From contig JAWOFN010000062.1 in NCBI GenBank assembly GCA_046497505.1, forward strand, positions 1 through 33,509: a stretch of 33,509 nucleotides of DNA. The letters run 5' to 3'. A program made the position numbers and the translations under genes. Below the pieces are notes generated by a model, which searched no databases, had not been told where the DNA came from, and saw only the letters and a list, made by a program, of their open reading frames with translations. Of the stretch, positions 4,101-33,304 are shown in pieces; position 1 is the stretch's first letter, and every line of letters begins with the position of its first letter. The stretch comes from JAWOFN01 sp046497505 [NCBI: bacterium] (GTDB taxonomy: Bacteria; Blakebacterota; Blakebacteria; Blakebacterales).

Positions 4101-4120
4101 ATACAAGATATATATTGTTC
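4101..4120. promoter_or_regulatory. AT-rich core of the rocD / ABC-exporter divergent promoter region
   Basis: The 157 bases between the rocD GTG (4047) and the exporter ATG (4205) are the only divergent non-coding gap in the first 15 kb. Within it a nearly GC-free block (ATACAAGATATATATTGTTC) stands out against a GC-rich background. TATA-like hexamers can be read on both strands, but I could not pair any of them with a good -35 at 16-18 bases. I call it a likely promoter core for one or both genes without fixing the start sites. Confidence 0.4.
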
Positions 4121-4204
4121 AGAGACCGGTCGGCCCAAATCCGTACCGCGCCGGCCGGGGGCCTCACCCCAGGTCCCGGTGTACACACGACGGATGGGAG
4201 CGTG

Positions 4205-12007: not shown

Positions 12008-12020
12008 ACGCTCCTCCGCA

Positions 12021-12575: not shown

Positions 12576-15178
12576 CAGAACCTCACCTCCAGTCCGATCC
12601 GGGTCCGGCGGCCGACCGCGTAGGCTCCGGGGTCCCCCAGTTCGCCGCCGATCTTCCCGTCGCTGGCCACCCAGAGGACGTTCTGCCTGTCGGTGAGGTT
12701 GCGTACGTCACCGAAGAGGACCAGCCGCATCCGGCGGCCCCCCGCTTCGAACGGGATGGCGCGGTCGAACCGGAGGTCGAGGGTGAACGTGTCGCGCATG
12801 CGGGCCTCGTTGGGCATGATCTCCTCGTCCGCCGGGAGGATCCCGTTGGGGGAGGGTGCGTAGGTGTAGGGGCGGGGGGAACTGTAGCGGCCCACCAGGT
12901 GATACCCCAGGCCGTTCCACATCCCGTTCACGTCCACGGCCAGCGTGTGCCGCTGGTCCCAGGAGAGGCAGTGCATGCGGCGCGATGGCTGGAAGCCCCA
13001 CGCGAAATAACTCAGGCCGGAGGTGCCGGTGTCCGCATGTCCCCGGGCCACCATGTAGGTGTAGGCGACCCGGACCCCGGGCAGGTCGGGAGCGGGCCGT
13101 CGCTCCAGGGCCGCCTCCACACCGGAGGAGCGGGCGAGGGGGAGGTTGACGAACTGGGTGTAGCCGTCCTCCAGGGCCCTGCTGTCGGCGGCCAGGAAGG
13201 TCTTCGTGTCGATGAGGTTGTTGGATTCCTTGAAGAAGTAGGTGAAACTCCCCGCGGTGCGTTCGTCGAAGGTCCGCCGGAAGGCGAACTCGTACGCCTT
13301 GGTCCGCATGTGCTTGAGGTCGGGGTTCCCCACCAGCACCCTCAGCCCCCGGGTGAGGTCCAGGTCGAGACCGCTGTAGAGCTGATCGAAGAGGGGTACC
13401 TGGAAGAAGAGACCGTAGTTGAAGAGGAAGTAGGTCCGCTCATCCAGAGGGAAGGAGAGACCGATACGGGGGCTCACCTGGTGCTTCAGGCCGGCGGGCA
13501 CCCAGTCGGTGATCTCCTGCTGGAACTCCTCGGAGGTGGTGGGCACCCATTCGATCACCGGACGCCGTGCCCGCGGGTCGAGCCAGTCGTAGCGCAGCCC
13601 GGTCTTCAGCACCAGGCCGTCGCCCGCCTCGTAGGTGTCCTGGAGGTAGAAGCTCCCGACCCGGGGGAAGTATCGGTAGGAGCTGGAGAAGTCCAGGGGG
13701 GCCTCCTCCGGCATGGGCTGCCCGTAGAAGGTGGTCCGGGGTTCCAGCTTCAGCAGATCGGAGTCGAGCTGATAGAAGGAGAGGTCGAACCCCCCCTTGA
13801 GACGGTGGCTCCCCAGGTGGGCCGTCATGCTCCCCCGGGTGGTGTTCACCCTCTGGTCCCCGCGAAACCACCACAGACGCTCCCCGCTGTCCACGTACTG
13901 CAGGAAGGAGTCGTACGTCCAGCGCGGACGGTCCTCCACTTCGGCCCGGTCGTCGCTGTTCACCCCGCTCCGGATCCTGAGGGTGGAGAACTGCAGGTCG
14001 TAGAAGATCCAGGGGGCCAGCAGGTGGTTCACCGAGAGGGAGAGCCGGTCGCTGGTCCGCCACGTGACCGGCAGTCCTTCCAGGTTGAAGCGCCACCGCC
14101 ACTCGTACCCCCGCTCCCACGTGTGGCTCGAGACCGCCTCCCCAGCCAGCCGGAGACTGGGACCGAGATAGACGTCGGTCCGGCCGAAGAGGTTCCACTC
14201 CCTGCTGTGGGGGGGCTGCAGGGCGGTGTGTTCGAAGTCCTGGCGCCAGCGGGTGGCGTCGGTGACCAGGTCGCCGGCCGCCAGCCAGAAGGCCCGGTCC
14301 CGGAAGAGGGGTCCGCCGCTCATGAGCTCGGCCTCCACCCGGCCGGAGTGCTCCGACCCCCCGAAGGGGGCCCCCAGGTCGTCCCGTTCGTACCGAAGCA
14401 GGGTCTCCGGGCTGTTGCCGCCCCGGCGGGTGATGATGTGCACCACGCCGGAGAGGGCGTTCCCGAACTCGGCGTCGAACCCGCCGGTGTGGATGTTCAG
14501 CTCGGTGATGGCCGACCGGGGCACCCCCGCGGCTGCACCTCCCGCCATCGGGTCCTGGACGGGCAGGCCGTCCAGGACGTAGAGGGTCTCGGTGGATCGC
14601 CCCCCGCGCACGTGCCCCCCCGCCGTCACACCCGGCTGAAGTTCCACCATCTCCTGGACCGTGTCCACCGGCAGACTCTGGATGGCCACCGAACCCACCC
14701 GGTGCATGGTCCCGGTGATGTCCTTCTGGATCAGGGGCCGGTCGGCCGTGACGGTGAGGGGACTCATCTGGACTTCGGACGGCTCGAGCCGCACGTCCAC
14801 CACCGTCCTCAGGGAGGGGAGCACGGCCACCTGCTCCATGCGGAGGGGCCGGTAGCCCACGAAGCTGAAACGGAGCGTATGCTCGCCGGCGGGGATGTTC
14901 CGGATGAGGTAGAACCCCTCGGCGTTGGTGATCCCCCCGTAGGGGGTCCCCTCCACGACCACGTTCACCGCGGCGAGGGGCTCCCCGGTCTCATCGTCCA
15001 CCACATCCCCCTGGAGGATGCCGGTGGACGAAGACTGGGCAAAAGACGTCCCGATACCGAAGACCAGGAGGAGCAGGGGGAACAGGGCGGGAAAGGCCGG
15101 GAAACCCGGACGCCCTTCGCCGGTATAACCCTGTACAGGCGGGAGGGACCCGCCTATTTTAGCACAGCTTCGGAGCAA
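12575..15178 (-). CDS. TonB-dependent outer-membrane receptor with CarboxypepD_reg-like domain
   Basis: The protein has about 867 residues. A signal peptide (FPALFPLLLLVFGIGTSFAQ core) is followed by a carboxypeptidase-regulatory-like beta domain (GDVVDDETGEPLAAVNVVVE to VGYRPLRME). The plug domain (VRGGRSTETLYVLDGLPVQD, then FDAEFGNALSGVVHIITRRG) comes next, then a 22-strand type barrel ending RIGLEVRF with the terminal Phe used by the BAM machinery. It takes up a large substrate driven by TonB; the substrate is unknown. I favour the TTG at 15178 because GGGAGG lies six bases upstream. The GTG at 15196 gives six more residues but has no ribosome-binding site and lies two bases from the GTG of the divergent bamA. 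No ATG exists before the signal core. It is the first gene of a three-gene minus-strand operon. Confidence 0.9.
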   Translation of the reverse strand: MLRSCAKIGGSLPPVQGYTGEGRPGFPAFPALFPLLLLVFGIGTSFAQSSSTGILQGDVVDDETGEPLAAVNVVVEGTPYGGITNAEGFYLIRNIPAGEHTLRFSFVGYRPLRMEQVAVLPSLRTVVDVRLEPSEVQMSPLTVTADRPLIQKDITGTMHRVGSVAIQSLPVDTVQEMVELQPGVTAGGHVRGGRSTETLYVLDGLPVQDPMAGGAAAGVPRSAITELNIHTGGFDAEFGNALSGVVHIITRRGGNSPETLLRYERDDLGAPFGGSEHSGRVEAELMSGGPLFRDRAFWLAAGDLVTDATRWRQDFEHTALQPPHSREWNLFGRTDVYLGPSLRLAGEAVSSHTWERGYEWRWRFNLEGLPVTWRTSDRLSLSVNHLLAPWIFYDLQFSTLRIRSGVNSDDRAEVEDRPRWTYDSFLQYVDSGERLWWFRGDQRVNTTRGSMTAHLGSHRLKGGFDLSFYQLDSDLLKLEPRTTFYGQPMPEEAPLDFSSSYRYFPRVGSFYLQDTYEAGDGLVLKTGLRYDWLDPRARRPVIEWVPTTSEEFQQEITDWVPAGLKHQVSPRIGLSFPLDERTYFLFNYGLFFQVPLFDQLYSGLDLDLTRGLRVLVGNPDLKHMRTKAYEFAFRRTFDERTAGSFTYFFKESNNLIDTKTFLAADSRALEDGYTQFVNLPLARSSGVEAALERRPAPDLPGVRVAYTYMVARGHADTGTSGLSYFAWGFQPSRRMHCLSWDQRHTLAVDVNGMWNGLGYHLVGRYSSPRPYTYAPSPNGILPADEEIMPNEARMRDTFTLDLRFDRAIPFEAGGRRMRLVLFGDVRNLTDRQNVLWVASDGKIGGELGDPGAYAVGRRTRIGLEVRF
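15132..15160 (+). promoter_or_regulatory. Candidate bamA promoter embedded in a hairpin
   Basis: TGTACA (15132-15137) and TATTTT (15155-15160) are separated by 17 bases and each match four of six sigma-70 consensus bases. They lie about 40 bases upstream of the bamA start codons. The spacer holds an inverted repeat (AGGCGGG 15137-15143, CCCGCCT 15149-15155) followed by ATTTT. The same DNA could therefore be a small intrinsic terminator on the plus strand. On the minus strand TAAAAT (15161-15156) is a good -10 but has no -35. All of this is inside the N-terminal coding region of the TonB receptor. Confidence 0.35.
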
Positions 15179-15201
15179 GAACTTCCTCCCAGACACGGGT
15201 G

Positions 15202-17580
15202 ATGATGCGAGGATATCCTATTCCATATCGGACGGGGGCCGCCACCCTGCTCGTCCTGGCCGCCCTGCTCCTGGCCCTTCCGGGAGCGGTCGGGGCCCAG
15301 GGAGGTTCGAATCCCACCGTGACCGTCACCGAGATCCGGGTGGAGGGCAACGTCTCTACCTCGCGGAGCCTCATCCTGGTCTCCTCGGGCCTTGCGGAGG
15401 GGCGTGCGTACGACCTGGCCTCCTTCACCGACGCCACGGGCCGGGCGATCCGGCAGCTCTGGCGCCTGGGTCTCTTCTCCGATGTCGAGATCTGGGCGGA
15501 ACAGCTGGGCGGCACCGGATCCAGCTTCGATGCGGTCCTGATCATCCGGGTGGTGGAGCGGCCCAAGGTGGCCAGCATCACCTTCCAGGGGAACGACGAC
15601 CTCAAACGGCGGGAACTCCTCGAGGCGGCGGGTCTCCGGGAGGGGACGGCCCAGGGGCCCAGTTCCATCGCCCGGGCCATGGACAGGATCCGTGAGAAGT
15701 ACCGGGAGGAGGGGCGGCTCCGGGCGGAACTGGACTACGAGTTCCTCTACACAGACAGTGATTCCACCCTCGCCAACCTGGCGGTCTCCATCGAAGAGGG
15801 TCCCAAGGTCGGGATCACCGACATCGAGGTCCTCGGCAACCGGGCCCTGAGCGACCGCCAGGTGAAGGGCCCGATGGAGACCGGTACCGGGTTCCTCTTC
15901 TTCTCGCGCGGGAAGTACGACCGCCGCACCCTGGAGGAGGACAAGGAACGGATCGCCCAGGCGTACGCGGACCGGGGCTACCTGGACGCAAGGGTGGTGG
16001 CGGACAGCCTGGCCTACGACGAGGACGGGAAGGACATGACCGTGGTCCTCACCGTGGACGAGGGGGAGCAGTACACCCTGGGGAGCCTCACCTGGGAGGG
16101 GCTCAGCGTGATCGACTCCACCGAGGTGGCGGAGGTGGTTCAGAGCAGGCCGGGGGAGGCATACAGCGAGGGACGGATCAGGGCGGACCTCCAGGCGGTG
16201 AACGGACTCTACTTCGAGGAGGGCTACGTCTACGCCAACGTGGTCCCCCAGGAGAGCTACGAGGGGCGGACCGTCCACCTCACCATGATGGTCCGCGAGG
16301 GGGAGCCGGCCAATGTGGCCCACATCTTCATCACCGGCAACACCAAGACCAAGGAGCACGTGATCCGCCGGGAACTGCTCCTCAAGCCCGGGGACCGGTT
16401 CTCCAACTCCCTCTTCCAGCGTTCCATCCGAGAGGTGATGGCCCTCAACTTCTTCGCCAACGTCGAGCTGGACCCCCCCCCGACCCCCACCGCCAGCGGC
16501 GATCTGGACGTGACCATCAAGGTCACCGAGAAGCCTACGGGACAGGCCACCATGGGGGCTGGGTTCAGCGAGCGGGACGGGCTCATCGGCAATCTGGGGC
16601 TGAGCCTCCCCAACCTCTTCGGGAACGGGCAGGAGCTCGACTTCCAGTGGGATTTCGGGCGGATCCGGCGGACCATCTCCTTCGGTTTCACCGAACCGTG
16701 GTTCATGAACACCCCCACCCTGGTGGGGTTCAACATCTACAGCAGCGAACTCTTCTGGACCACCTTCTACAAGCAGAAGCGCCAGGGGTTCAGTTTCCGG
16801 GTGGGCCGCCGGCTCCGCTGGCCGGACGACTACTTCCGAACCAGCGTGGGGTATCGGGTCGAGGACACCTCCTTCCTGGACTTCTCGCAGAACTACAACC
16901 CCAGCCCGGCCTACGACCTGAGGCAGTACGACTGGCCCATCCGCAACTCGAGCGTCTCGTGGACGGTGAGCCGGGACTCCCGGGACCAGCCGGAGTTCCC
17001 CACCAGCGGGTCCTCCAACAGCCTGCGGATCGAGGTGGCGGGGGGGCCCTTCGGTGGGGACGAGCAGTACGTGAAGTGGGATCTCAGCCAGTCATTCTTC
17101 ACCCCCGCCTGGTGGAACCTGGTGATGAACATGCGGATCCGGGCGGGCCTGGTGGAGGGGTATACAGGCTACGGACAGAGCGGGTTCGTCCCCTTCCAGG
17201 CCAAGTACCTGCCCGGGGGCACCTCCTTCGACGGCCAGATCCGGGGATACGAGAACCGCCGGGTGGGTCCGAAGGACCGGGACGGACTGGAGGTCGGAGG
17301 GCAGTCGCTGCTCATATTCACCCTGGAGTACACCTTCCCCCTGGCCCAGGCACAGTCCCTCTACGGACTCTTCTTCGCCGAAGCGGGGAACGCCTGGCAG
17401 GACCTCGGGGACACCGACCCCTTCGACCTGCGGCGTTCGGTGGGCTTCGGCCTGCGCATGTTCACGCCGCTGGTGGGGCTCATCGGATTTGACTTCGCAT
17501 ACGGCTTGGACCACTTTGTGGACGGCCGCCGGCAGGGGCGGTGGGTCCCTCACTTCCAGTTCGGCTACCAGTTCTATTGA
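15202..17580 (+). CDS. bamA: Outer-membrane protein assembly factor BamA
   Basis: The mature protein (about 792 residues in the precursor) inserts beta-barrel proteins into the outer membrane. A signal peptide (TLLVLAALLLALPGAVGAQ) is followed by five POTRA repeats to about residue 415, recognisable by VTVTEIRVEGN, VASITFQGNDDLKRREL, VGITDIEVLGNRALSDRQV, YTLGSLTWEGL and VAHIFITGNTKTKEHVIRREL. The 16-strand barrel follows, with the conserved loop-6 motif RGYENRRVG near residue 681 and the terminal aromatic FGYQFY. GTG-ATG-ATG are in frame at 15199, 15202 and 15205; none has a clear Shine-Dalgarno, so the first ATG is a choice by convention. The next gene is its periplasmic partner Skp. A C9 run lies at 16473-16481. 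Confidence 0.96.
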   Translation: MMRGYPIPYRTGAATLLVLAALLLALPGAVGAQGGSNPTVTVTEIRVEGNVSTSRSLILVSSGLAEGRAYDLASFTDATGRAIRQLWRLGLFSDVEIWAEQLGGTGSSFDAVLIIRVVERPKVASITFQGNDDLKRRELLEAAGLREGTAQGPSSIARAMDRIREKYREEGRLRAELDYEFLYTDSDSTLANLAVSIEEGPKVGITDIEVLGNRALSDRQVKGPMETGTGFLFFSRGKYDRRTLEEDKERIAQAYADRGYLDARVVADSLAYDEDGKDMTVVLTVDEGEQYTLGSLTWEGLSVIDSTEVAEVVQSRPGEAYSEGRIRADLQAVNGLYFEEGYVYANVVPQESYEGRTVHLTMMVREGEPANVAHIFITGNTKTKEHVIRRELLLKPGDRFSNSLFQRSIREVMALNFFANVELDPPPTPTASGDLDVTIKVTEKPTGQATMGAGFSERDGLIGNLGLSLPNLFGNGQELDFQWDFGRIRRTISFGFTEPWFMNTPTLVGFNIYSSELFWTTFYKQKRQGFSFRVGRRLRWPDDYFRTSVGYRVEDTSFLDFSQNYNPSPAYDLRQYDWPIRNSSVSWTVSRDSRDQPEFPTSGSSNSLRIEVAGGPFGGDEQYVKWDLSQSFFTPAWWNLVMNMRIRAGLVEGYTGYGQSGFVPFQAKYLPGGTSFDGQIRGYENRRVGPKDRDGLEVGGQSLLIFTLEYTFPLAQAQSLYGLFFAEAGNAWQDLGDTDPFDLRRSVGFGLRMFTPLVGLIGFDFAYGLDHFVDGRRQGRWVPHFQFGYQFY

Positions 17581-17656
17581 TCCGGTCTCCCGGGCCCTGC
17601 CGGGGCTTGGTGTATGCCTGCGGGGAGGAGCGGATCACTTGAAGGAGGCAGTTCTC

Positions 17657-18214
17657 ATGCGCAAGACCCTCGCCGCCGGAGCCCTGGGCGGCCTCGTGTT
17701 CGCCGTGGCCACCGGAGCCATCATGGTGCCCGTGCAGGACGCGGGTCTGAGGATCGGCTTCATCGACTCCCAGGCCGTCATCAGCGCCTATCCGGGGACC
17801 TCCGAGGCACAGGCCACCTTCAACGCCGAGAACGAGGCGTGGGAGCGTCAGGCCCAGCAGATGGAGGAAGAGGTCAACCGGCTGACCCAGGAACTCGAAC
17901 GACAGAGCCTGGCCATGAGCGAGGAGCGGAAGGCGCAGCTCAACGCCGAGCTCCAGCGCAAGGCCATGGAGTACCAGCAGTTCGTGAACCAGATCTGGGG
18001 ACAGCAGGGGCAGGCCTATCAGAGGAACCAGGAGCTGATGCAGCCCATCATCAACAAGGTGAACGCCCTGCTGGAGCAGGTGGGCAGCGACGAGGGATAC
18101 GACTACATCCTCGACGCCGCCTCCGGGGGCATCGTGCACGCCAACCCCGAGTACGACCTCACCCCCCGGGTCATCGAGCTGATGAACGAGGGCTCAGGCC
18201 CCGGCGGAGCATAG
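17657..18214 (+). CDS. skp: Periplasmic chaperone Skp/OmpH family
   Basis: A 185-residue exported chaperone that holds unfolded outer-membrane proteins on the way to BamA. The signal peptide covers about 25 residues (TLAAGALGGLVFAVATGAIM). The mature start LRIGFIDSQAVISAYPGTSEAQ matches the OmpH family opening (I-x-x-VD-x-Q-x-V). A long helical, coiled-coil region rich in Glu, Gln, Arg and Lys (about residues 50-125) forms the tentacles, and a short C-terminal strand region (YDYILDAASGGIVHANP) completes the body domain. AGGAGG at 17643-17648, eight bases before the ATG, fixes the start. The gap from bamA is 76 bases and contains no strong terminator. The bamA-skp-lpxD order is widely conserved. 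Confidence 0.92.
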   Translation: MRKTLAAGALGGLVFAVATGAIMVPVQDAGLRIGFIDSQAVISAYPGTSEAQATFNAENEAWERQAQQMEEEVNRLTQELERQSLAMSEERKAQLNAELQRKAMEYQQFVNQIWGQQGQAYQRNQELMQPIINKVNALLEQVGSDEGYDYILDAASGGIVHANPEYDLTPRVIELMNEGSGPGGA

Positions 18215-18250
18215 TGTCCTGCCGCGCTACGCGAGACCCGGGACCTCCGC

Positions 18251-19285
18251 GTGCTCGCCAGTAAGCTGGCCGACCGGCTGGGAGGCCGCCTGGAGGGGGA
18301 GGACAGCGAACTGACCGGCGTGGCCCCCCTCGACGAAGCGGGCCCCGGTGAGCTCTCCTTCCTCCATGCCGCGAAGTACGCCGACCGGCTCGCCGGGACC
18401 GGGGCCTCCGCCGTCCTCGTCTCCGAGGAGTATGAGGGACCGGCCCCCGCTGCCCTCATCCGGGTGGACTCCCCCTACGCCGCCCTGCGCCGGACCCTTG
18501 GATGGCTCTATCCCGAGACCGACCCGCCCACCCCGGGCGTGCATCCCTCCGCGGTGGTGGACCCCTCGGTCCGCCTGGGAGAGGAGGTGTCCGTCGGACC
18601 CCTGGCCGTGGTGGAGGCAGACGCGGAGGTGGGTGCCCGGACCGTCATCGGAGCAGGCAGCTATCTGGGCCGCAGGGTGAAGGTGGGTTCGGACTGTCGT
18701 ATCCACCCCAACGTGTGTGTCTGCCGCCGCTGCCGGATCGGTGATCGGGTGGAGATCCTCTCCGGCGCCGTCATCGGCAGCGACGGCTTCGGGCACAGCC
18801 GGGAGGAGGGGGTCTATCGGAAGATGCCGCACATCGGCATCGTCGTCCTGGAGGACGACGTGCTGGTGGGAGCATGCACCACCATCGACCGGGCCACGTT
18901 CGGTGAGACCCGGATCGAGAAGGGTGCCAAGCTGGACAACCTGGTCATGGTCGCCCACAACTGCGTGATCGGGCCGGACACGGCCGTGGTGGCTCAGGCC
19001 GGCATGGCCGGGTCCACTATCGTCGGAGGCGGCGTGCAGATTGGAGGGCAGGCGGGATTCGCAGGCCATCTGGAGGTGGGCGACGGTGCGGTGGTGGGGG
19101 CCCAGGCCGGCGTGACCAAGGACATCCCCGAGGGGACCTTCGTATCCGGTTACCCGGCCCGCCCGCACCGCGAGGCCCAGCTCCAGCTGGCCGCCGTCGC
19201 CCGGCTTCCCGAGCTGCGCAGGAAGGTGCGGGAGATGGAGTCCCGCATCGCCGACCTGGAGGCCAGGCTCGGCGAGGAAGAGTGA
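18251..19285 (+). CDS. lpxD: UDP-3-O-(acyl)glucosamine N-acyltransferase
   Basis: This 344-residue cytosolic trimeric acyltransferase adds the second acyl chain in lipid A synthesis using acyl-ACP. The N-terminal uridine-binding domain (LTGVAPLDEAGPGELSFLHAAKY) is followed by left-handed beta-helix hexapeptide repeats from about residue 95, the catalytic His236 in NLVMVAHNCVIG, and a C-terminal helix (LRRKVREMESRIADLEARL). Start is GTG 18251: it puts LASKLADRLGG exactly where the family begins. No Shine-Dalgarno is evident, no other in-frame start lies between it and the preceding gene, and the gap to skp is 36 bases. Cys residues at 156, 158 and 161 in the helix region (VCVCRRC) are unusual. 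Confidence 0.95.
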   Translation: MLASKLADRLGGRLEGEDSELTGVAPLDEAGPGELSFLHAAKYADRLAGTGASAVLVSEEYEGPAPAALIRVDSPYAALRRTLGWLYPETDPPTPGVHPSAVVDPSVRLGEEVSVGPLAVVEADAEVGARTVIGAGSYLGRRVKVGSDCRIHPNVCVCRRCRIGDRVEILSGAVIGSDGFGHSREEGVYRKMPHIGIVVLEDDVLVGACTTIDRATFGETRIEKGAKLDNLVMVAHNCVIGPDTAVVAQAGMAGSTIVGGGVQIGGQAGFAGHLEVGDGAVVGAQAGVTKDIPEGTFVSGYPARPHREAQLQLAAVARLPELRRKVREMESRIADLEARLGEEE

Positions 19286-19313: not shown

Positions 19314-20759
19314 ATGACGCTTCAGGCCCTCCAGGCCACTGTGGTCCGACCCGCGACCCTGGACGGGATGGGTCTCCATACCGGCAGTCCCACCTCGGTG
19401 ACCTTCCGTCCCGCTCCCCCGGGGAGCGGGATCATCTTCATCCGGTCCGACCTGCCCGGACGTCCCGAGATCAAGGCGGACATCGACAACGTCATCGGCC
19501 TGGACCGGGGCACGACCATCGGGGCGGGAGATGCCCGGGTGCACACGGTGGAACACTGTCTGGCCGCCCTGAGCGGCATGGGCATCGACAACTGTTATGT
19601 GGAACTGGACGGGCCGGAGCCCCCGGTGGGGGACGGTTCGGCCATGCCCTTCGTGGAGGCCCTCACCGAAGCCGGGAAGAAGGAGCAGGAGGCTCCCCGG
19701 CGCTACCTCGAGGTGGACGAGGTCATCACCTATTCCGAGGCGGAGCGGGGTGTGGACCTGCTGGTGCTCCCCTCTGACCGCTTCCGCATCACCTTCATGG
19801 TGGATTACCAGAACCCGGCCCTGGGGACCCAGTACACCAGCATGTACGGCCTGGAAGAGGAGTTCGTGGAGGAGTTCGCCGCCGCCCGGACCTTCTGTTT
19901 CCTCAGCGAGGTGAAGGAGATGAACGACCGGGGCCTGATCCAGGGCGGTGACGTGCACAACGCGGTGGTCATCATCGACCATCCCATCGACGACGAAGCG
20001 TTCGAGATCATGCAGGACCGCTTCGGCATTCCCCCCGATGCTCCCCGGGAGCAGGGTGAGGTGATCGTCGGGGGAGGCTTCCGCTGGCCCAACGAGCCGG
20101 TCCGTCACAAGACCCTCGACCTGGTGGGGGACTTCGCCCTGCTGGGGATGCCCCTGAAAGGGCACGTGCTGGCGGCCCGGTCGGGTCACGCCGCCAACGT
20201 GGCCGTGGTGAAGAAGCTGAGGAAGTTCGCCGAGCGGAAGGAGATCGAACTCAAGTACCAGGGGAGCAAGGCCGAGAAGGGCGTGCTGGACCATACCGCT
20301 CTCCAGCGGATCCTCCCCCACCGCTATCCCTTCCTGCTGGTGGACCGGATCGTGGAACTGGTCCCCCGGGAGCGGGTCGTGGGCATCAAGAACGTGACAC
20401 TGAACGAGGAGTTCTTCACCGGGCACTTCCCGGGGCAGCCGGTGATGCCGGGGGTCCTCATCATCGAGGCCATGGCCCAGGCGGGGGGCGTGCTCCTGCT
20501 GAACACCTTCGAGGATGCCGACGACAAGCTGGTGTACTTCATGGGGATCGACGGTGTGCGTTTCCGCAAGCCGGTCGTCCCCGGGGACCAGATCCGCCTC
20601 GAGGCGGATCTGGCCCGCCTGAAGGGCCGTACCTGTAAACTGCTGGCCCGTGCCTACGTGGACGGCCAGCTCGTTGCCGAGGGGGAGTTCCTCGCCAGCG
20701 TCCAGGACCGTCCCCCGGAACCGGGTACCGGCGAGGGGGAGGAGGAAGTCCCGGGATGA
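19314..20759 (+). CDS. lpxC/fabZ: Bifunctional LpxC-FabZ fusion
   Basis: This ~481-residue cytosolic fusion joins two activities. The LpxC half (residues 1-~305) is the zinc deacetylase for the committed step of lipid A synthesis. It shows HTVEHCLAAL (Glu80, zinc His81), VRHKTLDLVGD (His264, Asp268) and the catalytic His291 in SGHAANV. The FabZ half (~322-470) is the (3R)-hydroxyacyl-ACP dehydratase of fatty acid elongation, with LPHRYPFLLVDR, GHFPGQPVMPGVL (His370) and IEAMAQAGG (Glu384). Both active sites look intact. Fusion puts the enzymes competing for, or consuming, hydroxyacyl-ACP in one chain; it is known from Bacteroidota and relatives. AAGGAG at 19303-19308 supports the ATG. The stop overlaps the lpxA start (ATGA). 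Confidence 0.96.
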   Translation: MTLQALQATVVRPATLDGMGLHTGSPTSVTFRPAPPGSGIIFIRSDLPGRPEIKADIDNVIGLDRGTTIGAGDARVHTVEHCLAALSGMGIDNCYVELDGPEPPVGDGSAMPFVEALTEAGKKEQEAPRRYLEVDEVITYSEAERGVDLLVLPSDRFRITFMVDYQNPALGTQYTSMYGLEEEFVEEFAAARTFCFLSEVKEMNDRGLIQGGDVHNAVVIIDHPIDDEAFEIMQDRFGIPPDAPREQGEVIVGGGFRWPNEPVRHKTLDLVGDFALLGMPLKGHVLAARSGHAANVAVVKKLRKFAERKEIELKYQGSKAEKGVLDHTALQRILPHRYPFLLVDRIVELVPRERVVGIKNVTLNEEFFTGHFPGQPVMPGVLIIEAMAQAGGVLLLNTFEDADDKLVYFMGIDGVRFRKPVVPGDQIRLEADLARLKGRTCKLLARAYVDGQLVAEGEFLASVQDRPPEPGTGEGEEEVPG

Positions 20760-21538
20760 GCCCGGAGAGGAGCATCCATCCCACCGCGGCGGTGGATCAC
20801 CGTGCGGTAGTGGGCAGCGGGGTGGAGATCGGTCCCTACGCTGTGGTGGAGGAGGATGTGACCCTGGGCGACGGGGTACGCATCGGTCCCCACGCCCACA
20901 TCGCACGGGGTTCCCGGCTGGCCGAGGAGGTGCAGGTCTTCACCGGCGCGGCGGTGGGGAACGTACCCCAGGACCTGAAGTTCGCAGGGGAGGAGACCAC
21001 CCTGGAGGTGGGTCCCCGAACCATCGTCCGCGAGTTCTGCACCCTGCATCGGGGGACCGACGACCGCTCCCGAACCGTCATCGGCGCCGACTGCCTCCTC
21101 ATGGCCTACGTCCACGTGGCCCACGACTGCATCATCGGCGACCACTGCATCCTCGCCAACGCGGTACAGCTGGGGGGACATGTGGTGATCGGCGACTGGG
21201 TGATCATTGGCGGCAGCGTGCCGGTCCACCAGTTCTGCCGCATCGGCGACCACGCCATGGTGGGGGGCGGCTACCGGGTGGTACAGGACGTGCCTCCCTT
21301 CCTGCGGGTGGCGGGGGAACCCCTGCGGCCCGCGGGGATCAACTCCATCGGCCTGCGGCGCCGGGGATTCAGTGACGAGGCCCTCGCTGAGCTCAAGAGG
21401 GTCTACCGTCTCCTCTACCGGTCCGACCTGAACACCTCCCAGGCGGTACAGCGTATCCGGGAAGAGGTCCCGGACACCCCCGAGGTGGAGCAGATGCTGG
21501 ACTTCATCGCCTCCTCCGAGAGGGGGATGGTGGGGTGA
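20756..21538 (+). CDS. lpxA: Acyl-ACP--UDP-N-acetylglucosamine O-acyltransferase
   Basis: This 260-residue cytosolic beta-helix trimer catalyses the first step of lipid A synthesis. Hexapeptide repeats run from residue 7. The family segments VGNVPQDLKFAGE, TLHRGTDD, VHVAHDCIIGDHCILAN (catalytic His123), GGSVPVHQFCRIGDHAMVGGG and VPPFLRVAGEP are all present, followed by the C-terminal helical tail (GFSDEALAELKRVYRLLYRS). Start and stop overlap neighbours: its ATG shares bases with the lpxC-fabZ TGA, and its TGA with the next gene's GTG. Because the next gene may make a 3-amino sugar donor, this LpxA may form amide rather than ester links. I could not judge acceptor specificity from residues alone. 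Confidence 0.96.
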   Translation: MSPERSIHPTAAVDHRAVVGSGVEIGPYAVVEEDVTLGDGVRIGPHAHIARGSRLAEEVQVFTGAAVGNVPQDLKFAGEETTLEVGPRTIVREFCTLHRGTDDRSRTVIGADCLLMAYVHVAHDCIIGDHCILANAVQLGGHVVIGDWVIIGGSVPVHQFCRIGDHAMVGGGYRVVQDVPPFLRVAGEPLRPAGINSIGLRRRGFSDEALAELKRVYRLLYRSDLNTSQAVQRIREEVPDTPEVEQMLDFIASSERGMVG

Positions 21539-22551
21539 GCGTATCCCCCGGGGATCCCGGCACCCTCACCGTCGGCGTGACGGGCGTGGGACACCTGGGC
21601 ACCTATCACCTGCAGAAATACGCAGTCCATCCCCGGGTAGGGCGCATCCTCGTCTACGACATCCGTGAGGAGCAGGCCGCGCAGCGGGCCGAGAGCGTGC
21701 CGAGCCCACGGCCGGTCCAGGCAGCGGGTTCCCCGGCGGCCCTCTTCGAGGCATGCGACGCGGTGAGCGTGGCGGTCCCGACCCGTGCCCATCGGGAGGT
21801 GACCGAACAGGCTCTTGCCGCGGGATGCCACGTGCTGGTGGAGAAGCCGATCGCCGCCGACTCGGACGAGGCACGGGCCCTGGTCGAGGCCGCGGAGCGG
21901 GCGGACCGTGTGCTCCAGGTCGGTCACGTGGAGCGGTTCAACCCGGCCCTGCAGGGACTGGAGGCCGAGGGGATCGTCCCCGGTTTCATCGAGGCCCATC
22001 GCCTCGCACCCTACAATCCCAGGGGCACCGATGTCCCGGTGGTCCTGGACCTCATGGTCCACGACCTCGACCTGATCCTCCACCTCGTGGGGGAGGAGCC
22101 CTCCGAACTGCATGCGGCCGGGGTGGCGGTAATCACCCCTTCCGCGGACATCGCCAACGTGCGGCTCTCCTTTCCCGGCGGCTGCGTGGCCAACGTCACG
22201 GCCAGCCGGGTCTCCCTGACGGCGATGAGGAAACTGCGGGTGTTCCAGCGGGACACCTACCTCGGTCTCGACCTGCAGCAGGGAAGGCGCGAGATCGTGC
22301 GCCTCCGAGACCGGGACCAGGGACTCGGGGAGGGGGAACTCCCGGTGATGGGCCTGGAAGGGCGCCGGGTGACCCGGGTGGAGGTACAGGGGGGGGAGGA
22401 TGCCCTGGCCATGGAGATCGACGCCTTCCTCCGGGCCGTGGAGGCCCACCGCGCCGGGGGGGAGCCGAAGGTCCCCCGCGGGGTGAGCGGGAGGGAAGCG
22501 GCCCGGGCACTGGCCCTGGCCGAAGAGATCACCCGGGCCATCACCGCCTGA
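21535..22551 (+). CDS. Gfo/Idh/MocA oxidoreductase, GnnA-like, between lpxA and lpxB
   Basis: The protein is a 338-residue cytosolic NAD(P)-dependent sugar dehydrogenase. The N-terminal Rossmann fold has GVTGVGHLGTYHLQKYA, followed by AVPTRAHREVTEQAL, the family catalytic-lysine motif VLVEKPIAAD, then QVGHVERFNPALQGL and VVLDLMVHDLDLILHLVG. The last two are typical of the Gfo/Idh members found in lipopolysaccharide clusters. Position is telling: GTG overlaps the lpxA stop and lpxB follows after one base. In Acidithiobacillus ferrooxidans, GnnA of this family oxidises UDP-GlcNAc at C3 so that GnnB (a PLP aminotransferase) can make UDP-GlcNAc3N for amide-linked lipid A. No GnnB-type gene is in the window, so that function is inferred. 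Confidence 0.85.
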   Translation: MSVSPGDPGTLTVGVTGVGHLGTYHLQKYAVHPRVGRILVYDIREEQAAQRAESVPSPRPVQAAGSPAALFEACDAVSVAVPTRAHREVTEQALAAGCHVLVEKPIAADSDEARALVEAAERADRVLQVGHVERFNPALQGLEAEGIVPGFIEAHRLAPYNPRGTDVPVVLDLMVHDLDLILHLVGEEPSELHAAGVAVITPSADIANVRLSFPGGCVANVTASRVSLTAMRKLRVFQRDTYLGLDLQQGRREIVRLRDRDQGLGEGELPVMGLEGRRVTRVEVQGGEDALAMEIDAFLRAVEAHRAGGEPKVPRGVSGREAARALALAEEITRAITA

Positions 22552-22552
22552 G

Positions 22553-23767
22553 ATGGATCGGGTCCGTGTATTCGTGCTCGCGGGCGAACCCAGCGGCGAC
22601 CTGCACGCCGCAGCCCTGGTTCGGGCCATGAGGCGGCGCTGCCCCCGGCTCCGATTCACCGGGCTGGGAGGGGACCGCCTCCAGGACGAGGGGGTGGAGA
22701 TCCTCCACCACACCGACCAGCTCGCCGTCATGGGTTTCGCCGAGGTGGTGCGCCATCTGCCCCGGATGCTCCGGGTCATGGGGGACGTGCGGAGCTTCCT
22801 CCACGCCCATCGGCCCCGACTGATGATCTGCGTGGATTACCCGGGGATGAACCTCCGGGTCGCCCGGGAGGCCGCTGAGCTGGGCATCCCCGTGCTCTAC
22901 TACATCGCGCCCCAGGTCTGGGCCTGGCACGAGGAGCGGGTACGGGAGCTCGCCGAGTTCACCGACGTCATAGGCTGCGTGCTTCCCTTCGAACCGGAGT
23001 TCTTCCGTACCAAGGGGGCGGAGCTGGGCGTGGAGCCCAGGGCGGAGTTCGTCGGGCACCCCCTGGTGCACGCGGCCCGGCCCCGGGTCGACGCCGCCCA
23101 GTTCCGGGCCGAGATGCTCCTCCCCCCGGACGTCACCATCCTCGCCCTCCTCCCGGGGAGCCGGGAACAGGAGGTGAGCCGCCTGCTCCCGCCCATGCTG
23201 GAGGCGATGGGGCTGCTGCGACGCGAGCGTCCCGGCCTGGTCCCCATCCTCTGCGCGGCACCGGGGCTGGAGCGGGAGCGGTACGAGAAGATCGTCTCGA
23301 AGGGACCGCTCCTTCCGGCCCCTGCCGTCCCCGATGGACCGACCCATGCCCCGGGAGGGGGACTGCACATCGTCGCAGGACGGACCTACGATGTCCTCAA
23401 CGCCGCACGGGGAGCCCTTGTCGCCTCCGGGACCGCGACCCTGGAGACGGGGCTGCTGGGCATCCCTATGGTGATCGCCTACCGGATGAGCCCGCTCTCC
23501 TGGCGTATCGGCCGGGCACGGGTGAAGGTGCCCCACGTGGGGCTGGTCAACCTGGTCGCCGGGGAGCGGGTGGTCCCGGAACTGCTCCAGGAAGAGGCCA
23601 CCCCGGGGCGCATGGCGGCGGAGCTGGGAGCCCTCATGGACGAGGGACCGGACCGGCACCGTGTGCTGGAGGGGCTGGCGGCGGTCCGGGCGGAACTGGG
23701 GGAGGAGGACGCCCCGGAACGGGGTGCCGAGCTGGCCATGGAACTGCTGGAGTGGGAGGGACCGTGA
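22553..23767 (+). CDS. lpxB: Lipid-A-disaccharide synthase
   Basis: This 404-residue peripheral inner-membrane glycosyltransferase (GT19) joins UDP-2,3-diacylglucosamine and lipid X. Motifs in order: FVLAGEPSGDLHAAALVRAM at the N-terminus, GLGGDRLQDEG, QLAVMGFAEVVRHLP, ICVDYPGMNLRVAREA, VLYYIAPQVWAWHEERV, LLPGSREQEVSRLLP, ASGTATLETGLLGIPMVIAY, and VGLVNLVAGERVVPELLQEE near the C-terminus. Length and order are standard. There is one base between the preceding TGA and this ATG; no independent ribosome-binding site is obvious, which fits translational coupling. The TGA shares its last base with the waaA ATG. Confidence 0.96.
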   Translation: MDRVRVFVLAGEPSGDLHAAALVRAMRRRCPRLRFTGLGGDRLQDEGVEILHHTDQLAVMGFAEVVRHLPRMLRVMGDVRSFLHAHRPRLMICVDYPGMNLRVAREAAELGIPVLYYIAPQVWAWHEERVRELAEFTDVIGCVLPFEPEFFRTKGAELGVEPRAEFVGHPLVHAARPRVDAAQFRAEMLLPPDVTILALLPGSREQEVSRLLPPMLEAMGLLRRERPGLVPILCAAPGLERERYEKIVSKGPLLPAPAVPDGPTHAPGGGLHIVAGRTYDVLNAARGALVASGTATLETGLLGIPMVIAYRMSPLSWRIGRARVKVPHVGLVNLVAGERVVPELLQEEATPGRMAAELGALMDEGPDRHRVLEGLAAVRAELGEEDAPERGAELAMELLEWEGP

Positions 23768-25161
23768 TGAGGGGCCTGGAACGCGGGGTCGGGGCGGTAC
23801 TGCAGGCAATCTACTCCGGGCTGGCCTGGGTAACCGCCCTCGCGGGCCTTCCGTGGTGGGTCTACCGGGGCCTGAGGGAGCCGGGGAACCCCCTGGAACG
23901 CTACGGCCGGGTCCCGGTGCGGATACGCCGGGCCGCGGACGCCTGCGGGAGTCTCTGGTTCCACGCGGCAAGCGTGGGGGAGGTCGGGGTGCTGGCCCGG
24001 GTGATCCCCCGCCTGGCGTCCCTCCTCCCCGATCTCCCCGTGGTGGTGACGACCGTCACCGCCACCGGCCGGGAACGGGCCCGCCAGCTCCTGGGCGAGG
24101 GTACCCATATCATGTACCTGCCCCTCGACGCGCCCGGGCTGGTCCGCTCCGCCGTGCGGACCCTCCATCCCCAGCTCCTGGTGGTGGCGGAGACCGAGCT
24201 GTGGCCCAACCTCATCCGGGAGGTACACCGCTACGGGGCACCCATCCTGCTGGTGAACGGACGACTCAGTGAGAAGGCCTTCCGGCGCTACAGGCTGGTC
24301 CGACCCGGCATGGCCGGGGTGCTGGGCCCGGTGGAGGCGTTCTGCGTGAAGTCGGAGAGGGACAGGGAACGCTTCACGGCCCTGGGTGCCTCGCCGGAGA
24401 GGGTCTGTGTGGCGGGGGACCTCAAGATGGAGCCCCTGCCCGGGGAGGGGAGGGACCGGGAGGACGTGCGCCGTTCCGCCCGCCTCCCCGCCGACCGTCG
24501 GGTGGTCACCGCCGGGAGCACGCGAGAGGGGGAGGAGCCCCGGGTCCTGGAGGCCTTCCGGGCGGTGAGGAGGGCCCACCCGGGAACGCTCCTCGTCCTG
24601 GCTCCCCGCTATCCCCACCGGGGCGACGAGGTGGAGGGGATCATCCGGGCGGAGGGGCTTGAGGTCCTCCGCCGGACCCGCCAGGAGGGGGAGAGCGTCC
24701 CCCCCGAGACGGATGTCCTCCTGCTGGACACCCTGGGTGAGCTGGAGGGGGTGTTCGCCGCATCGGAGGCGGCCTTCGTGGGGGGGAGTCTGGTGCCGGT
24801 GGGGGGCCACAACCTCCTGGAGCCCGCGGCCTCCGGTGTCCCCGTCCTCTTCGGGCCCCATACCGAGCAGACCGGAGGGGCGGACGAGGTGCTGCTGGAG
24901 GAGGGGGGAGGGCGGCGGGTGCGGGACGCCGAAGGGCTGGCACGGGCCTGGAACGAACTCCTGGCGGACGAGGGACTCAGGGTCCGAACGGGGGAGAGAG
25001 CCCGCAGGGCCGTGAGAGAGGGACAGGGGGCCCTGGACCGCGTCACCGCCCGGTGCCGCCGGATCGTGGGTATGGACAGCCCCGGCGGGGGTGCTCACAC
25101 CGACCGGGGGAGCAGGGGCCCCAGGGCCGAGGACGAGCCGGCCGGTGAGGGGATACGGTGA
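23767..25161 (+). CDS. waaA: 3-deoxy-D-manno-octulosonic acid (Kdo) transferase
   Basis: This 464-residue inner-membrane-bound GT30 enzyme adds Kdo to the lipid IVA precursor. An N-terminal membrane anchor (VTALAGLPWWVYRGL region) precedes NPLERYGRVP, where the family's acidic base lies. WFHAASVGEVGVLARVIPR, VVTTVTATGRERARQLL, VVAETELWPNLIREV and ILLVNGRLSEKAFRRY follow. The C-terminal domain has TAGSTREGEEPRVLEAF, LAPRYPHRGDEV and VGGSLVPVGGHNLLEPAA. ATG 23767 has GGAGG seven bases upstream; the GTG at 23764 is also possible. It is not evident from sequence whether one or two Kdo are added. The last ~30 residues are Gly/Arg/Glu-rich and outside the core. Confidence 0.95.
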   Translation: MRGLERGVGAVLQAIYSGLAWVTALAGLPWWVYRGLREPGNPLERYGRVPVRIRRAADACGSLWFHAASVGEVGVLARVIPRLASLLPDLPVVVTTVTATGRERARQLLGEGTHIMYLPLDAPGLVRSAVRTLHPQLLVVAETELWPNLIREVHRYGAPILLVNGRLSEKAFRRYRLVRPGMAGVLGPVEAFCVKSERDRERFTALGASPERVCVAGDLKMEPLPGEGRDREDVRRSARLPADRRVVTAGSTREGEEPRVLEAFRAVRRAHPGTLLVLAPRYPHRGDEVEGIIRAEGLEVLRRTRQEGESVPPETDVLLLDTLGELEGVFAASEAAFVGGSLVPVGGHNLLEPAASGVPVLFGPHTEQTGGADEVLLEEGGGRRVRDAEGLARAWNELLADEGLRVRTGERARRAVREGQGALDRVTARCRRIVGMDSPGGGAHTDRGSRGPRAEDEPAGEGIR

Positions 25162-26285
25162 GACGGGCACTGGAGGCGATGTTTCACAGGATTTGGGCCG
25201 GCAGGAGGGAGCGCCCCCTGGCTCCATGGGAACGCCTCTTCTACTGGCTGATGGTCCCCTTCGGCACCCTATATTCCTCCTTTGCCTGGGCCCGCCGTGA
25301 ATTGTATCGGGCCGGGGTGCTGCGCAGCAGGTCGGTCCCCGGACTCACGGTCGTGAGTGTGGGGAACATCACGGTGGGGGGGACGGGGAAATCCCCCCTG
25401 ACCATCGCCCTGGCCCGGGGTCTCATGGAGCGGGACATACCCGTCGCCGTGGTCTCCCGGGGGTACGGTGCGGTGGGCCGGGGTTCGGGCCCGCTGCTGG
25501 TCTCGGACGGCACGGGACCCCTGGTGGGACCGGACCGGGCGGGGGACGAGCCGGTGATGATCGCCCGCTCCGTACCGGTGACGGTCATCGTCAGCCGTGA
25601 CCGCCCGACCGGAGCCCGCCTGGCACGTGATCGATACGGGGCCAGGGTGGTGATCCTGGACGACGGTTTCCAGCACCGGGCCCTGGCACGGGACGCGGAC
25701 GTGGTGCTCCTGGACGGCCGTGACCCTTTCGGCAACAGGTGGACCCTCCCCGCGGGCCCCCTCAGGGAACCGCTCTCCGCCCTTCGGGACGCCGACCTCT
25801 ATTTCTTCGTCTACCGGGGCCTGGAGGGGATCCGTCCCGTCCCCGACCGTCTCAAGGGGCTGCTCGCGGCCTTCAACCGCGACGCCCTCCTGGTGCAGGG
25901 GAGTCTGAGGATCCAGGGCCTTCGCCGCTTCAGGGGGGGCGAACTCAGGGAGAGGGAGTGGCTGAAGGGACGCAGGGTCCTCCTGGTCTCCGGGATCGCC
26001 CGCCCCGCCGACTTCCGGGCGGAGGTGGAGGGGCGGGGAGCCGAGGTGGCCGATCACCTCGCTTATCCCGACCACCACGACTACGGCTCCGAGGAGGCGG
26101 CTTTCATCCGGGAACGGCTGGCCGGGGTGGATGCGGAGGTCCTGCTCACCACCGCCAAGGACGAGGTAAAGCTCATACCGGCTGGGCTGCGGATCCCGGA
26201 GGGGAGGGAGGGTTGGGTGGCGGAGGCGGGTTACGACCCCCGGAGCGTGGACCTCCTGGTCGACGCGCTGGCCGGGCTGGATTGA
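25158..26285 (+). CDS. lpxK: Tetraacyldisaccharide 4'-kinase
   Basis: This 375-residue inner-membrane-associated P-loop kinase phosphorylates the 4' position of the lipid A disaccharide. A hydrophobic N-terminal helix (FYWLMVPFGTLYSSFAW) attaches it to the membrane. The P-loop SVGNITVGGTGKSPLTIAL, the VAVVSRGYG segment, the DDGFQHRALARD catalytic motif, LPAGPLREPLSALRDAD and the C-terminal LLTTAKDEVKL are all present. The GTG start overlaps the waaA stop (GTGA), with GAGGGG five bases upstream. It closes the block of overlapping lipid A genes; nadB starts 35 bases later. Confidence 0.95.
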   Translation: MRRALEAMFHRIWAGRRERPLAPWERLFYWLMVPFGTLYSSFAWARRELYRAGVLRSRSVPGLTVVSVGNITVGGTGKSPLTIALARGLMERDIPVAVVSRGYGAVGRGSGPLLVSDGTGPLVGPDRAGDEPVMIARSVPVTVIVSRDRPTGARLARDRYGARVVILDDGFQHRALARDADVVLLDGRDPFGNRWTLPAGPLREPLSALRDADLYFFVYRGLEGIRPVPDRLKGLLAAFNRDALLVQGSLRIQGLRRFRGGELREREWLKGRRVLLVSGIARPADFRAEVEGRGAEVADHLAYPDHHDYGSEEAAFIRERLAGVDAEVLLTTAKDEVKLIPAGLRIPEGREGWVAEAGYDPRSVDLLVDALAGLD

Positions 26286-27973: not shown

Positions 27974-29796
27974 CCCTTGCAGCCGACCGACCGTTCGTGG
28001 CCGTGCTTGATTTCGGGGGGCAGTACACCCATCTCATCGCCAACCGGATCCGCCGCCTCGGGGTATACAGCGAGATCCTTCCGCCCGACGCCCGGGAGGA
28101 GGACCTGGAGGGCGCGGTGGGCATCATCCTGAGCGGCGGTCCCAGCAGTGTCTACGACGCGAGCCAGCCCCCTTTCAACGCGGAGCTCTTCGAGCAGGAG
28201 GTGCCCATGCTGGGGCTCTGCTACGGCCACCAGCTCCTGGCCCAGCAGATGGGGGGACAGGTGGTCCGCGGGGAGGTGCGTGAGTACGGGGCAGCGGCCA
28301 TGGAGGTGGAGAAGGGCGGAGGCCTCCTGGAGGGCCTGGAGGACCGAGAGCAGGTATGGATGAGCCACGGGGACCAGGTGGTGGAGCTCCCGGAGGGGTT
28401 CCAGGTACTGGGACGCACCCGGGACTGCCCGGTCGCCGCCATGGGGGACCCCGACCGCAGGCGATACGGTCTCCAGTTCCATCCCGAGGTGACCCACACC
28501 CCCCACGGCATGAGAGTCCTGGACAACTTCCTGGATCTATGTGAAACCGCAAGAGACTGGAACCCAAGGGGCTATGTAGAACACATCACACAGTACATGA
28601 GGAAGAGGGTGGGGGAGCATCGGGTCCTCCTCCTGGTCTCGGGCGGGGTGGACTCCACCGTCTGCTTCGCCCTGCTGAACCGTGCCCTGGGGGAGGAACA
28701 GGTCCTGGGGCTGCACATCGACAACGGGCTCATGCGCAAGGGGGAGTCGGGCCTGGTGGCGCGGGTCTTCCGGGAGGAGGGCTACCGCAACCTGGAGCAC
28801 GTGGACGCGTCCGGGACCTTCCTGGACGCGCTGGAGGGTGTGGTGGACCCGGAGGAGAAGCGGCGGATCATCGGGCGGGTCTTCGTGGAGGTGGCCCACG
28901 ACCACCTGGCGGGCCTGGGACTCGAGGAGGGGTGGGTCCTGGCCCAGGGGACGATCTACCCGGACACCATCGAGACCGGCGGCACCCGGCACGCCGCCAC
29001 CATCAAGACCCACCACAACCGGGTCGAGGAGATCGAGCTCCTCATCGAGCAGGGGAAGGTGGTGGAGCCCCTGGCCGACCTCTACAAGGACGAGGTGCGT
29101 GAAGCGGGGCTCGCCCTGGGGCTCCCCGGGGAACTGGTCTGGCGCCATCCCTTCCCCGGTCCCGGTCTGGGCGTGCGGCTCCTCTGCGACGACGGCATCC
29201 CCCTGGAACCGGAACAGCTCCTCGATCTGGGTGAGGCTGAGGAGCAGGCCCGGACCGTGGCGGGCGGCTACGGCTACGAGGCCCGGGTACTCCCGATCCG
29301 TTCGGTGGGTGTGCAGGGGGACTTCCGCACCTACGCCCACCCGGTGGCCCTCTTCGGCGGGGATAGGGACTGGCGGACACTGGAGGAGGTCTCCACCCGC
29401 CTCACCAACAGCATCGACCTGGTCAACCGGGTGGTCTACGCCCTGCGGCCGGGGGCTCCGGCGGAGTTCGAAGCCGAGGCGGCGGTGGTCACCCGGGAGC
29501 GCCTCGACCAGCTGCGCGAGGCGGACGCCCTGGCCATGGAGCACCTGCGGAGCGCCGGGAGGCACCGCGAGGTATGGCAGATGCCGACCGTCCTGGTCCC
29601 CCTCTCGGTGGACGGCCGGGGGGAGAGCGTGGTGCTTCGGCCCGTGCTGAGCCAGGAGGCCATGACGGCACGCTTCGCCGACCTGCCGTGGGACGTGGTG
29701 GAGGAGATGGCCCGGAGGATCGGGGGGCTCGAAGGCATCTCGGGTGTGTTCTACGATGTGACCCACAAACCGCCCGGCACCATCGAATGGGAATGA
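27970..29796 (+). CDS. guaA: GMP synthase (glutamine-hydrolysing), long human-type form
   Basis: This cytosolic enzyme converts XMP, glutamine and ATP to GMP. At 608 residues it is some 85 longer than the usual bacterial form (about 510-525). The class I glutaminase has LGLCYGHQLLAQQMGG (Cys) and YGLQFHPEVTHT (His, Glu). The ATP pyrophosphatase has LLLVSGGVDSTVCF near residue 224, AQGTIYPDTIETGG and HPFPGPGLGVRLL. The extra length is a second copy of the dimerisation module: residues ~440-495 (LPIRSVGVQGDFRTY to VNRVVYAL) precede the usual C-terminal module, which ends KPPGTIEWE. This arrangement is known from eukaryotic GMP synthetase. GTG 27970 overlaps the nadB stop (GTGA) and its TGA overlaps the next gene's ATG. 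Confidence 0.95.
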   Translation: MTLAADRPFVAVLDFGGQYTHLIANRIRRLGVYSEILPPDAREEDLEGAVGIILSGGPSSVYDASQPPFNAELFEQEVPMLGLCYGHQLLAQQMGGQVVRGEVREYGAAAMEVEKGGGLLEGLEDREQVWMSHGDQVVELPEGFQVLGRTRDCPVAAMGDPDRRRYGLQFHPEVTHTPHGMRVLDNFLDLCETARDWNPRGYVEHITQYMRKRVGEHRVLLLVSGGVDSTVCFALLNRALGEEQVLGLHIDNGLMRKGESGLVARVFREEGYRNLEHVDASGTFLDALEGVVDPEEKRRIIGRVFVEVAHDHLAGLGLEEGWVLAQGTIYPDTIETGGTRHAATIKTHHNRVEEIELLIEQGKVVEPLADLYKDEVREAGLALGLPGELVWRHPFPGPGLGVRLLCDDGIPLEPEQLLDLGEAEEQARTVAGGYGYEARVLPIRSVGVQGDFRTYAHPVALFGGDRDWRTLEEVSTRLTNSIDLVNRVVYALRPGAPAEFEAEAAVVTRERLDQLREADALAMEHLRSAGRHREVWQMPTVLVPLSVDGRGESVVLRPVLSQEAMTARFADLPWDVVEEMARRIGGLEGISGVFYDVTHKPPGTIEWE

Positions 29797-31073: not shown

Positions 31074-31113
31074 TCCCCTCCCTCCCCGCATAGCTGCTTC
31101 CCGTGCGACCGAG

Positions 31114-31137
31114 CGGCCCCTTCTCCGGGACGGGCCG
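31114..31137 (+). terminator. First hairpin downstream of rpsU
   Basis: CGGCCC (31114-31119) pairs with GGGCCG (31132-31137) across a 12-base loop, followed by TTCCTCTC. The T-run is weak, so it may be a 3'-end stabilising hairpin upstream of the stronger terminator at 31160. Confidence 0.35.
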
Positions 31138-31159
31138 TTCCTCTCTCCCGCCGAGATGC

Positions 31160-31189
31160 GGACGGGGAGGCGGCCGTCCCTTTTGTCTT
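31160..31189 (+). terminator. Intrinsic terminator of rpsU
   Basis: GGACGG (31160-31165) pairs with CCGTCC (31174-31179) around an eight-base loop, and the stem is followed by CTTTTGTCTT. A GC stem plus T-rich tail in the right place, 87 bases after rpsU and 40 before uvrB, makes this the best intrinsic terminator in the window. Confidence 0.7.
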
Positions 31190-31229
31190 GGCGGGTCATC
31201 GGGCCCCTCCGTACGTTTCAGCCTGTGCC

Positions 31230-33304
<2,075 letters not shown>

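Follow-up and report, generated by a model that had tools for sequence, protein, structure and literature searches.

A GnnA-type dehydrogenase gene between lpxA and lpxB suggests amide-linked lipid A in a small bacterial phylum

Introduction

The closest characterised counterpart of the protein described here is GnnA of Acidithiobacillus ferrooxidans, whose two structure entries (7bvj and 7bvk) are titled UDP-N-acetylglucosamine 3-dehydrogenase GnnA. In that organism gnnA presumably stands beside lipid A genes, and we take gnnB to be its immediate neighbour. Another known enzyme sharing the Gfo/Idh fold of our protein is WlbA/WbpB, a UDP-GlcNAcA 3-dehydrogenase, whose partner is likewise a DegT aminotransferase acting at C3. 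Homologues of gnnA and gnnB have been reported together with GlcN3N-containing lipid A in Mesorhizobium loti, Phyllobacterium and Granulibacter, as described in PMC5644692 and PMC8036547. The two genes are apart in M. loti (PMC5644692), and Granulibacter has a single putative gnnA with two candidates for gnnB (PMC8036547). The lipid A of Legionella pneumophila has a GlcN3N backbone (PMC7956469). In the genome of another Legionella, the gammaproteobacterium L. adelaidensis (NZ_LR134421.1), a GnnA-type gene lies directly before lpxB, with no DegT gene annotated within 16.8 kb.

Here we analyse a stretch of DNA of 33,509 nucleotides, called the window throughout, in which a gene for a Gfo/Idh oxidoreductase (gfo) is located between lpxA and lpxB. 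The arrangement resembles that of L. adelaidensis in that the gene directly precedes lpxB, and it differs in that no lpxA precedes the gene in the 16.8-kb Legionella stretch. The window's gfo also lies inside the lpx cluster, whereas gnnA of M. loti and Phyllobacterium lies outside it (PMC5644692).

Results

Naming by NCBIfam and Pfam models gives the gene run bamA, an ORF of 216 aa, lpxD, lpxC/fabZ, lpxA, gfo, lpxB, kdtA and lpxK, all on the forward strand. It opens with bamA (15199-17580), for an outer membrane assembly factor (TIGR03303, 513.7 bits against a cut-off of 297), and with the 216-aa ORF (17614-18264), which has neither a Pfam nor an NCBIfam match and occupies a position where, we assume, Skp/OmpH is often found. 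Then follow lpxD (18251-19285; TIGR01853, 347 bits), an lpxC/fabZ fusion (19314-20759; NF009667, 594 bits) and lpxA (20756-21538; TIGR01852, 330 bits), for an acyltransferase expected to act on position 3 of the UDP-sugar, each above the cut-off of its model. Beyond gfo lie lpxB (22553-23767; lipid A disaccharide synthase; TIGR00215, 274 bits) and lpxK (25158-26285; 4'-kinase; TIGR00682, 194 bits), also above cut-off, and between them the Kdo transferase gene kdtA/waaA (23752-25161), which scores above cut-off with PF04413 (187 bits) and below it with its best NCBIfam model (330 bits, cut-off 438).

The gfo ORF (21535-22551, forward strand) starts with GTG and encodes 338 aa. It overlaps the end of lpxA at 21538 by four bases (GTGA), and a single base separates its stop from the lpxB ATG at 22553. 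An initial annotation had described this overlap and one-base gap and had read the GxGxxG, EKP and HDxDLIL motifs as intact; both descriptions held on measurement, with GVGHLG at residues 17-22, EKP at 103-105 and the HDLDLIL stretch beginning at H176. The protein matches the Pfam families GFO_IDH_MocA (85.6 bits, cut-off 24) and GFO_IDH_MocA_C3 (37.5 bits, cut-off 27). In an alignment of 32 Gfo proteins that includes the window's, G17, G19, G22, E103, K104, P105, D172, H176, D177 and D179 are invariant, and the EKP lysine and the HD pair are also found in GnnA; the A. ferrooxidans enzyme differs in having K, V and H where the 32 have E133, F135 and N136. Because its codon-position G+C (0.80/0.47/0.87) is in line with that of the neighbouring genes and related genomes keep the same arrangement, this is a real, intact gene for a Gfo/Idh/MocA oxidoreductase.

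A Pfam scan of 22 window ORFs found no DegT aminotransferase, which bears out the earlier remark that GnnB is missing from the operon and sets the window apart from A. ferrooxidans. The class-III aminotransferase encoded at 2836-4428 (-) belongs to a family other than DegT. Elsewhere in the window, the ORF at 9275-12040 (-) has synthetase domains, which we take to be of the NDP-forming acyl-CoA synthetase type, fused to a GNAT acetyltransferase domain, and that at 12575-15196 (-) encodes a TonB-dependent receptor preceded by a carboxypeptidase-regulatory-like domain. The ORFs at 29574-30728, 31103-31945 and 12021-12575 (-) have no Pfam match and are putative genes.

Compared by sequence with all solved structures, the window's Gfo has its best match in GnnA (7bvj/7bvk) at 203 bits, and the next match reaches 65 bits. 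Its predicted model, built from 32 sequences with a pLDDT of 94.9, again fits GnnA best (Z 38.5, rmsd 1.7 A over 298 residues, 41% identity), ahead of a second match at Z 33.2 and 19% identity. The Gfo/Idh fold is common, with many PDB chains above Z 30 and WlbA (3q2k) at 31.1. The two proteins thus share family, length, EKP and HD motifs and 37-42% identity. Against the archaeal UDP-GlcNAc 3-dehydrogenase model NF040723 the window's protein scores 149 bits, below the curated cut-off of 450.

Our main Gfo tree has 37 rows, after removal of five partial or extreme rows from 42, with three long rows as outgroup. A branch with 96/98 support separates the window's Gfo, GnnA, the Legionella gfo-lpxB protein, a Haloferax Gfo and lpx-linked relatives from a WlbA-like protein, a Gfo of genome G026 and a paralogue of G001. 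The WlbA-like protein, from G023, has genes for a hexapeptide transferase and a DegT protein as neighbours and is 26% identical to the window's Gfo. Within its group the window's Gfo joins its own phylum (100/99) and then the single row from Gemmatimonadota (98/97), while the branching order of the GnnA-type group is otherwise mostly without support. When a Gfo of genome G041 is added (38 rows), support for the GnnA group becomes 88/94, and an inner branch with GnnA, the G041 protein and the window's Gfo stands at 96/97; a quick tree of all 42 rows, which keeps the partial and very long ones, gives the GnnA-group branch 53. The placement with characterised GnnA that had been suggested for this protein is what we recovered. 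From sequence, predicted structure, trees and operon position, it is well supported that gfo encodes a predicted GnnA-type dehydrogenase.

Stretches encoding relatives of the window's Gfo number at least 567, of which we used the best 80. The closest among the matches listed are two MAGs (L001 and L002) at about 60% identity, and most of the best 80 are from Bacteroidota, with a gene about 38-48% identical and no lpx gene recognised close by. No DegT gene was found at E 1e-20 around gfo in these 80 loci, many of them short or cut, or in 11 further lpx regions of relatives. All four available genomes of the window's own small phylum have gfo adjoining lpxA, lpxB or both on the stretch that their contigs cover, and in G011 and G012 the gfo region is truncated by a contig end. 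In a set of 31 genomes made up of G001 and 30 relatives, gfo is present at E 1e-20 or better in 19. We opened the surroundings in 15 of them (all but G027, G028, G029 and G034) and found gfo by lpxA, lpxB or both in 13, including G013, where it precedes lpxB with a gap; we recognised no lpx gene around gfo of G018 and G036.

The gene is widespread in Gemmatimonadota, the phylum to which G003 with its locus L010 belongs, where 53 of 61 genomes have it. Of 30 gfo loci inspected in that phylum, lpxA is present in 27, lpxB in 29 and both in 26; a protein that reads, presumably, like MurB recurs near gfo in 11 of the 30. The slot between lpxA and lpxB can also hold an LpxI gene: in G017 it follows gfo and is followed by lpxB, and in G033, which has no gfo, it occupies the slot alone (LpxI ORFs of G033 and G017: L193:9270-10094 and L196:8109-8930).

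A DegT gene within an lpx cluster was found in the three genomes of a third, small phylum (L230:7223-8380, L243:1501-2625 and L244:1091-2314, all on the minus strand), where the genes are 85-100% identical and the G040 match carries one TGA. The order in G026 and G040 is fabZ-DegT-lpxA-lpxB, and in G041 it is fabZ-DegT-gfo followed by the contig end. The G041 gfo is of GnnA type, 37% identical to the window's Gfo and in its clade, so that this DegT-gfo pair among lpx genes would be the expected linked gnnB-gnnA pair, judged by sequence. Downstream in G026 lie a second LpxB-like ORF and two divergent Gfo genes. On plasmid pHME505 of Haloferax mediterranei a DegT gene and a Gfo gene, of GnnB and GnnA type by sequence, stand side by side (L258:2842-4966), and many haloarchaeal plasmids give similar Gfo matches.

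For a partner gene beyond the window the analysis covered related genomes. In the window's phylum, G001 and G002 have three DegT genes each at E 1e-46 or better, fragments counted. One of them sits after clpX and engB in both genomes, with tig and clpP also ahead of it in G001, and is unlinked to the lpx operon; the G001 copy is a fragment cut by a contig end, and the G002 copy is split over two contigs with an exact overlap of 114 bases. The best PDB matches of the G002 protein are 7b0d (357 bits), whose entry name is scyllo-inositol transaminase, 2oga (332), which we take to be DesV, QdtB (280), 7n63 (277) and WbpE (246), with lower scores for perosamine synthetase (214-217) and ArnB (149-198). 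We assume that enzymes of the 7b0d, DesV, QdtB and WbpE type act at C3 and that perosamine synthetase and ArnB act at C4. In a DegT tree, the G002 protein falls in a 100/100 clade with QdtB, 7b0d and WbpE-like proteins, apart from PseC and perosamine synthetase. By these sequence comparisons it is a predicted sugar C3-aminotransferase, the type that GnnB must be. Because it lies outside the 99/99 clade that unites the Haloferax DegT with those of G026 and G041, in a tree whose rows include no characterised GnnB, we name it a candidate and not GnnB itself, and after the finding in G041 we put its chance of performing the GnnB step somewhat below even.

The candidate gene was not found in G011 and G012, and neither was engB, so that the locus may be absent from these two assemblies. 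Two WlbA-like queries were compared with the Gfo loci of these four genomes of the window's phylum, loci that had been gathered with the window's protein as query so that a distant WlbA could escape; the highest identity reached was 37%, over 84 residues. The comparison thus gave no good WlbA candidate, which leaves the lpx-linked gfo as the simplest supplier of a 3-keto sugar to the candidate DegT. Other DegT genes of G001 and G002 were considered and set aside as GnnB: L085 and L083 both score above the PseC cut-off, and the divergent L098 (G001) lies beside WbqC and glycosyltransferase-4 genes. The relatives of L098 in G002 (L181, 73%) and G012 (L173, 62%) have the same neighbours.

Co-occurrence of gfo with D-like DegT genes was rejected as support. 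In 27 relatives outside the window's phylum, a set that leaves out G001, G002, G011 and G012, the median D-like DegT score is 261 bits in the 15 genomes with gfo and 150 in the 12 without (Mann-Whitney p 0.0007), and without five genomes lacking a full lpxA match the comparison is 13 against 9 (p 0.008). These differences are confounded by ancestry and genome completeness, and there is no association in Gemmatimonadota, where a D-like DegT is present in 52 of 53 genomes with gfo and in 7 of 8 without. We likewise set aside the Gemmatimonadota DegT as GnnB: Pfam applied to two of eight neighbourhoods opened (L324 and L327) places a UDP-sugar dehydrogenase gene beside DegT in both, with Gfo and a hexapeptide transferase also present in L327, neighbours that point to a WbpE-type role.

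In a comparison of LpxA proteins with G027 and G034 set aside as weak, no alignment column separates genomes with gfo (16 LpxA) from those without (9). A published study of Leptospira LpxA reportedly bears on the selectivity of the enzyme; our own literature search returned no paper that, by its listing, deals with LpxA selectivity.

Discussion

The reading that we prefer, and hold to be probable, is that gfo encodes a GnnA-type enzyme which, with a partner encoded elsewhere, leads to lipid A that contains GlcN3N and is amide-linked. The gfo product, synthesised along with the lipid A enzymes, would be an NAD-dependent UDP-GlcNAc 3-dehydrogenase that turns the 3-hydroxyl of UDP-GlcNAc into a ketone. 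Amination of this ketone would fall to an aminotransferase from another locus, for which the DegT after clpX and engB is the best candidate, and LpxA would acylate the amine of the resulting UDP-GlcNAc3N. LpxC/FabZ, LpxD, LpxB, KdtA and LpxK would then complete a lipid A that contains one or more 2,3-diamino sugars and hence amide-linked acyl chains, and a lipid of this amide-linked kind is likely in the window's lineage.

The initial annotation had proposed hydrolysis-resistant lipid A with four amide-linked chains. Its central element, a GnnA-like enzyme inside the operon, stands; the number of four exceeds the evidence, since the LpxA comparison gave no selectivity residue and backbones with one GlcN3N are known from Campylobacter jejuni and Capnocytophaga canimorsus (PMC7956469, PMC3342949). 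The same two points favour a hybrid backbone, in which one of the two sugars is GlcN3N because LpxA takes both UDP-GlcNAc and UDP-GlcNAc3N, and which would give three amide-linked primary chains and not four. Against it, the window has a single lpxA and C. canimorsus has two (PMC3342949), a difference that is not decisive. The hybrid is a variant of the preferred pathway and compatible with its main claim; since LpxA holds no telling residue it is an equally possible form of that pathway, and as the specific outcome we hold it tentatively, well short of an even chance.

A true UDP-GlcNAc 3-dehydrogenase might instead supply an amino sugar mainly for another glycan, such as O-antigen or capsule, and leave lipid A ester-linked. 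That the pathway can serve other glycans is indicated by the plasmid-borne DegT-Gfo pair of Haloferax, since archaea, to our knowledge, have no lipid A. The UDP-sugar dehydrogenase genes beside D-like DegT in L324 and L327 point the same way, as does the fact that no lpx gene was recognised near 17 of the 31 relatives chosen for the Gfo tree (11 of them Bacteroidota), on stretches of which some are short and where divergent lpx genes could escape. In the window and its close relatives, however, gfo is embedded in the lipid A operon, where it overlaps lpxA and adjoins lpxB, and we consider this use of the sugar improbable. Still less probable is that the protein has a different Gfo/Idh activity, such as that of WlbA, which oxidises UDP-GlcNAcA, or that of an inositol-type dehydrogenase, and came into the operon by chance. 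The wide occurrence of the fold would allow for it, but GnnA stands clear of all other structures in both comparisons (203 against 65 bits, Z 38.5 against 33.2), and the WlbA-like protein of G023 falls outside the clade.

The lack of a DegT gene next to gfo, in the window and in the relatives examined, is a weak objection to the preferred reading, because gnnA and gnnB are apart in M. loti and the gfo-lpxB pair of L. adelaidensis has no annotated DegT; with Granulibacter as a further precedent, an unlinked partner is unremarkable. A wider and rather doubtful extension is that both Gemmatimonadota and the window's phylum have, throughout, GlcN3N-containing lipid A with an operon-borne GnnA, and that the GnnB step is carried out there by C3 aminotransferases of another lineage than the lpx-linked DegT, in Gemmatimonadota perhaps by a WbpE-like enzyme shared with surface polysaccharides. 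If this were true, the GnnB step would have been filled on more than one occasion, and orthology alone would not suffice to find GnnB.

The type of gene, the reaction it serves and its position next to lpx genes were already known. New to us is the near phylum-wide presence of gfo, both in Gemmatimonadota and in the window's small phylum, together with a hint of more than one DegT lineage for the GnnB step. Our literature search, which covered titles and the openings of abstracts and few subscription papers, returned no report of either, and a search for Gemmatimonadetes or Gemmatimonas with lipid A, again with few subscription papers covered, returned nothing on the topic. If the preferred reading is correct, the absence of gnnB beside gnnA would not mean that the pathway is absent, and one gene between lpxA and lpxB would allow readers of genomes to predict amide-linked lipid A. 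Amide-linked, alkali-resistant lipid A would then be the usual form in the large, mostly uncultured Gemmatimonadota and in neighbouring lineages, and not a scattered speciality.
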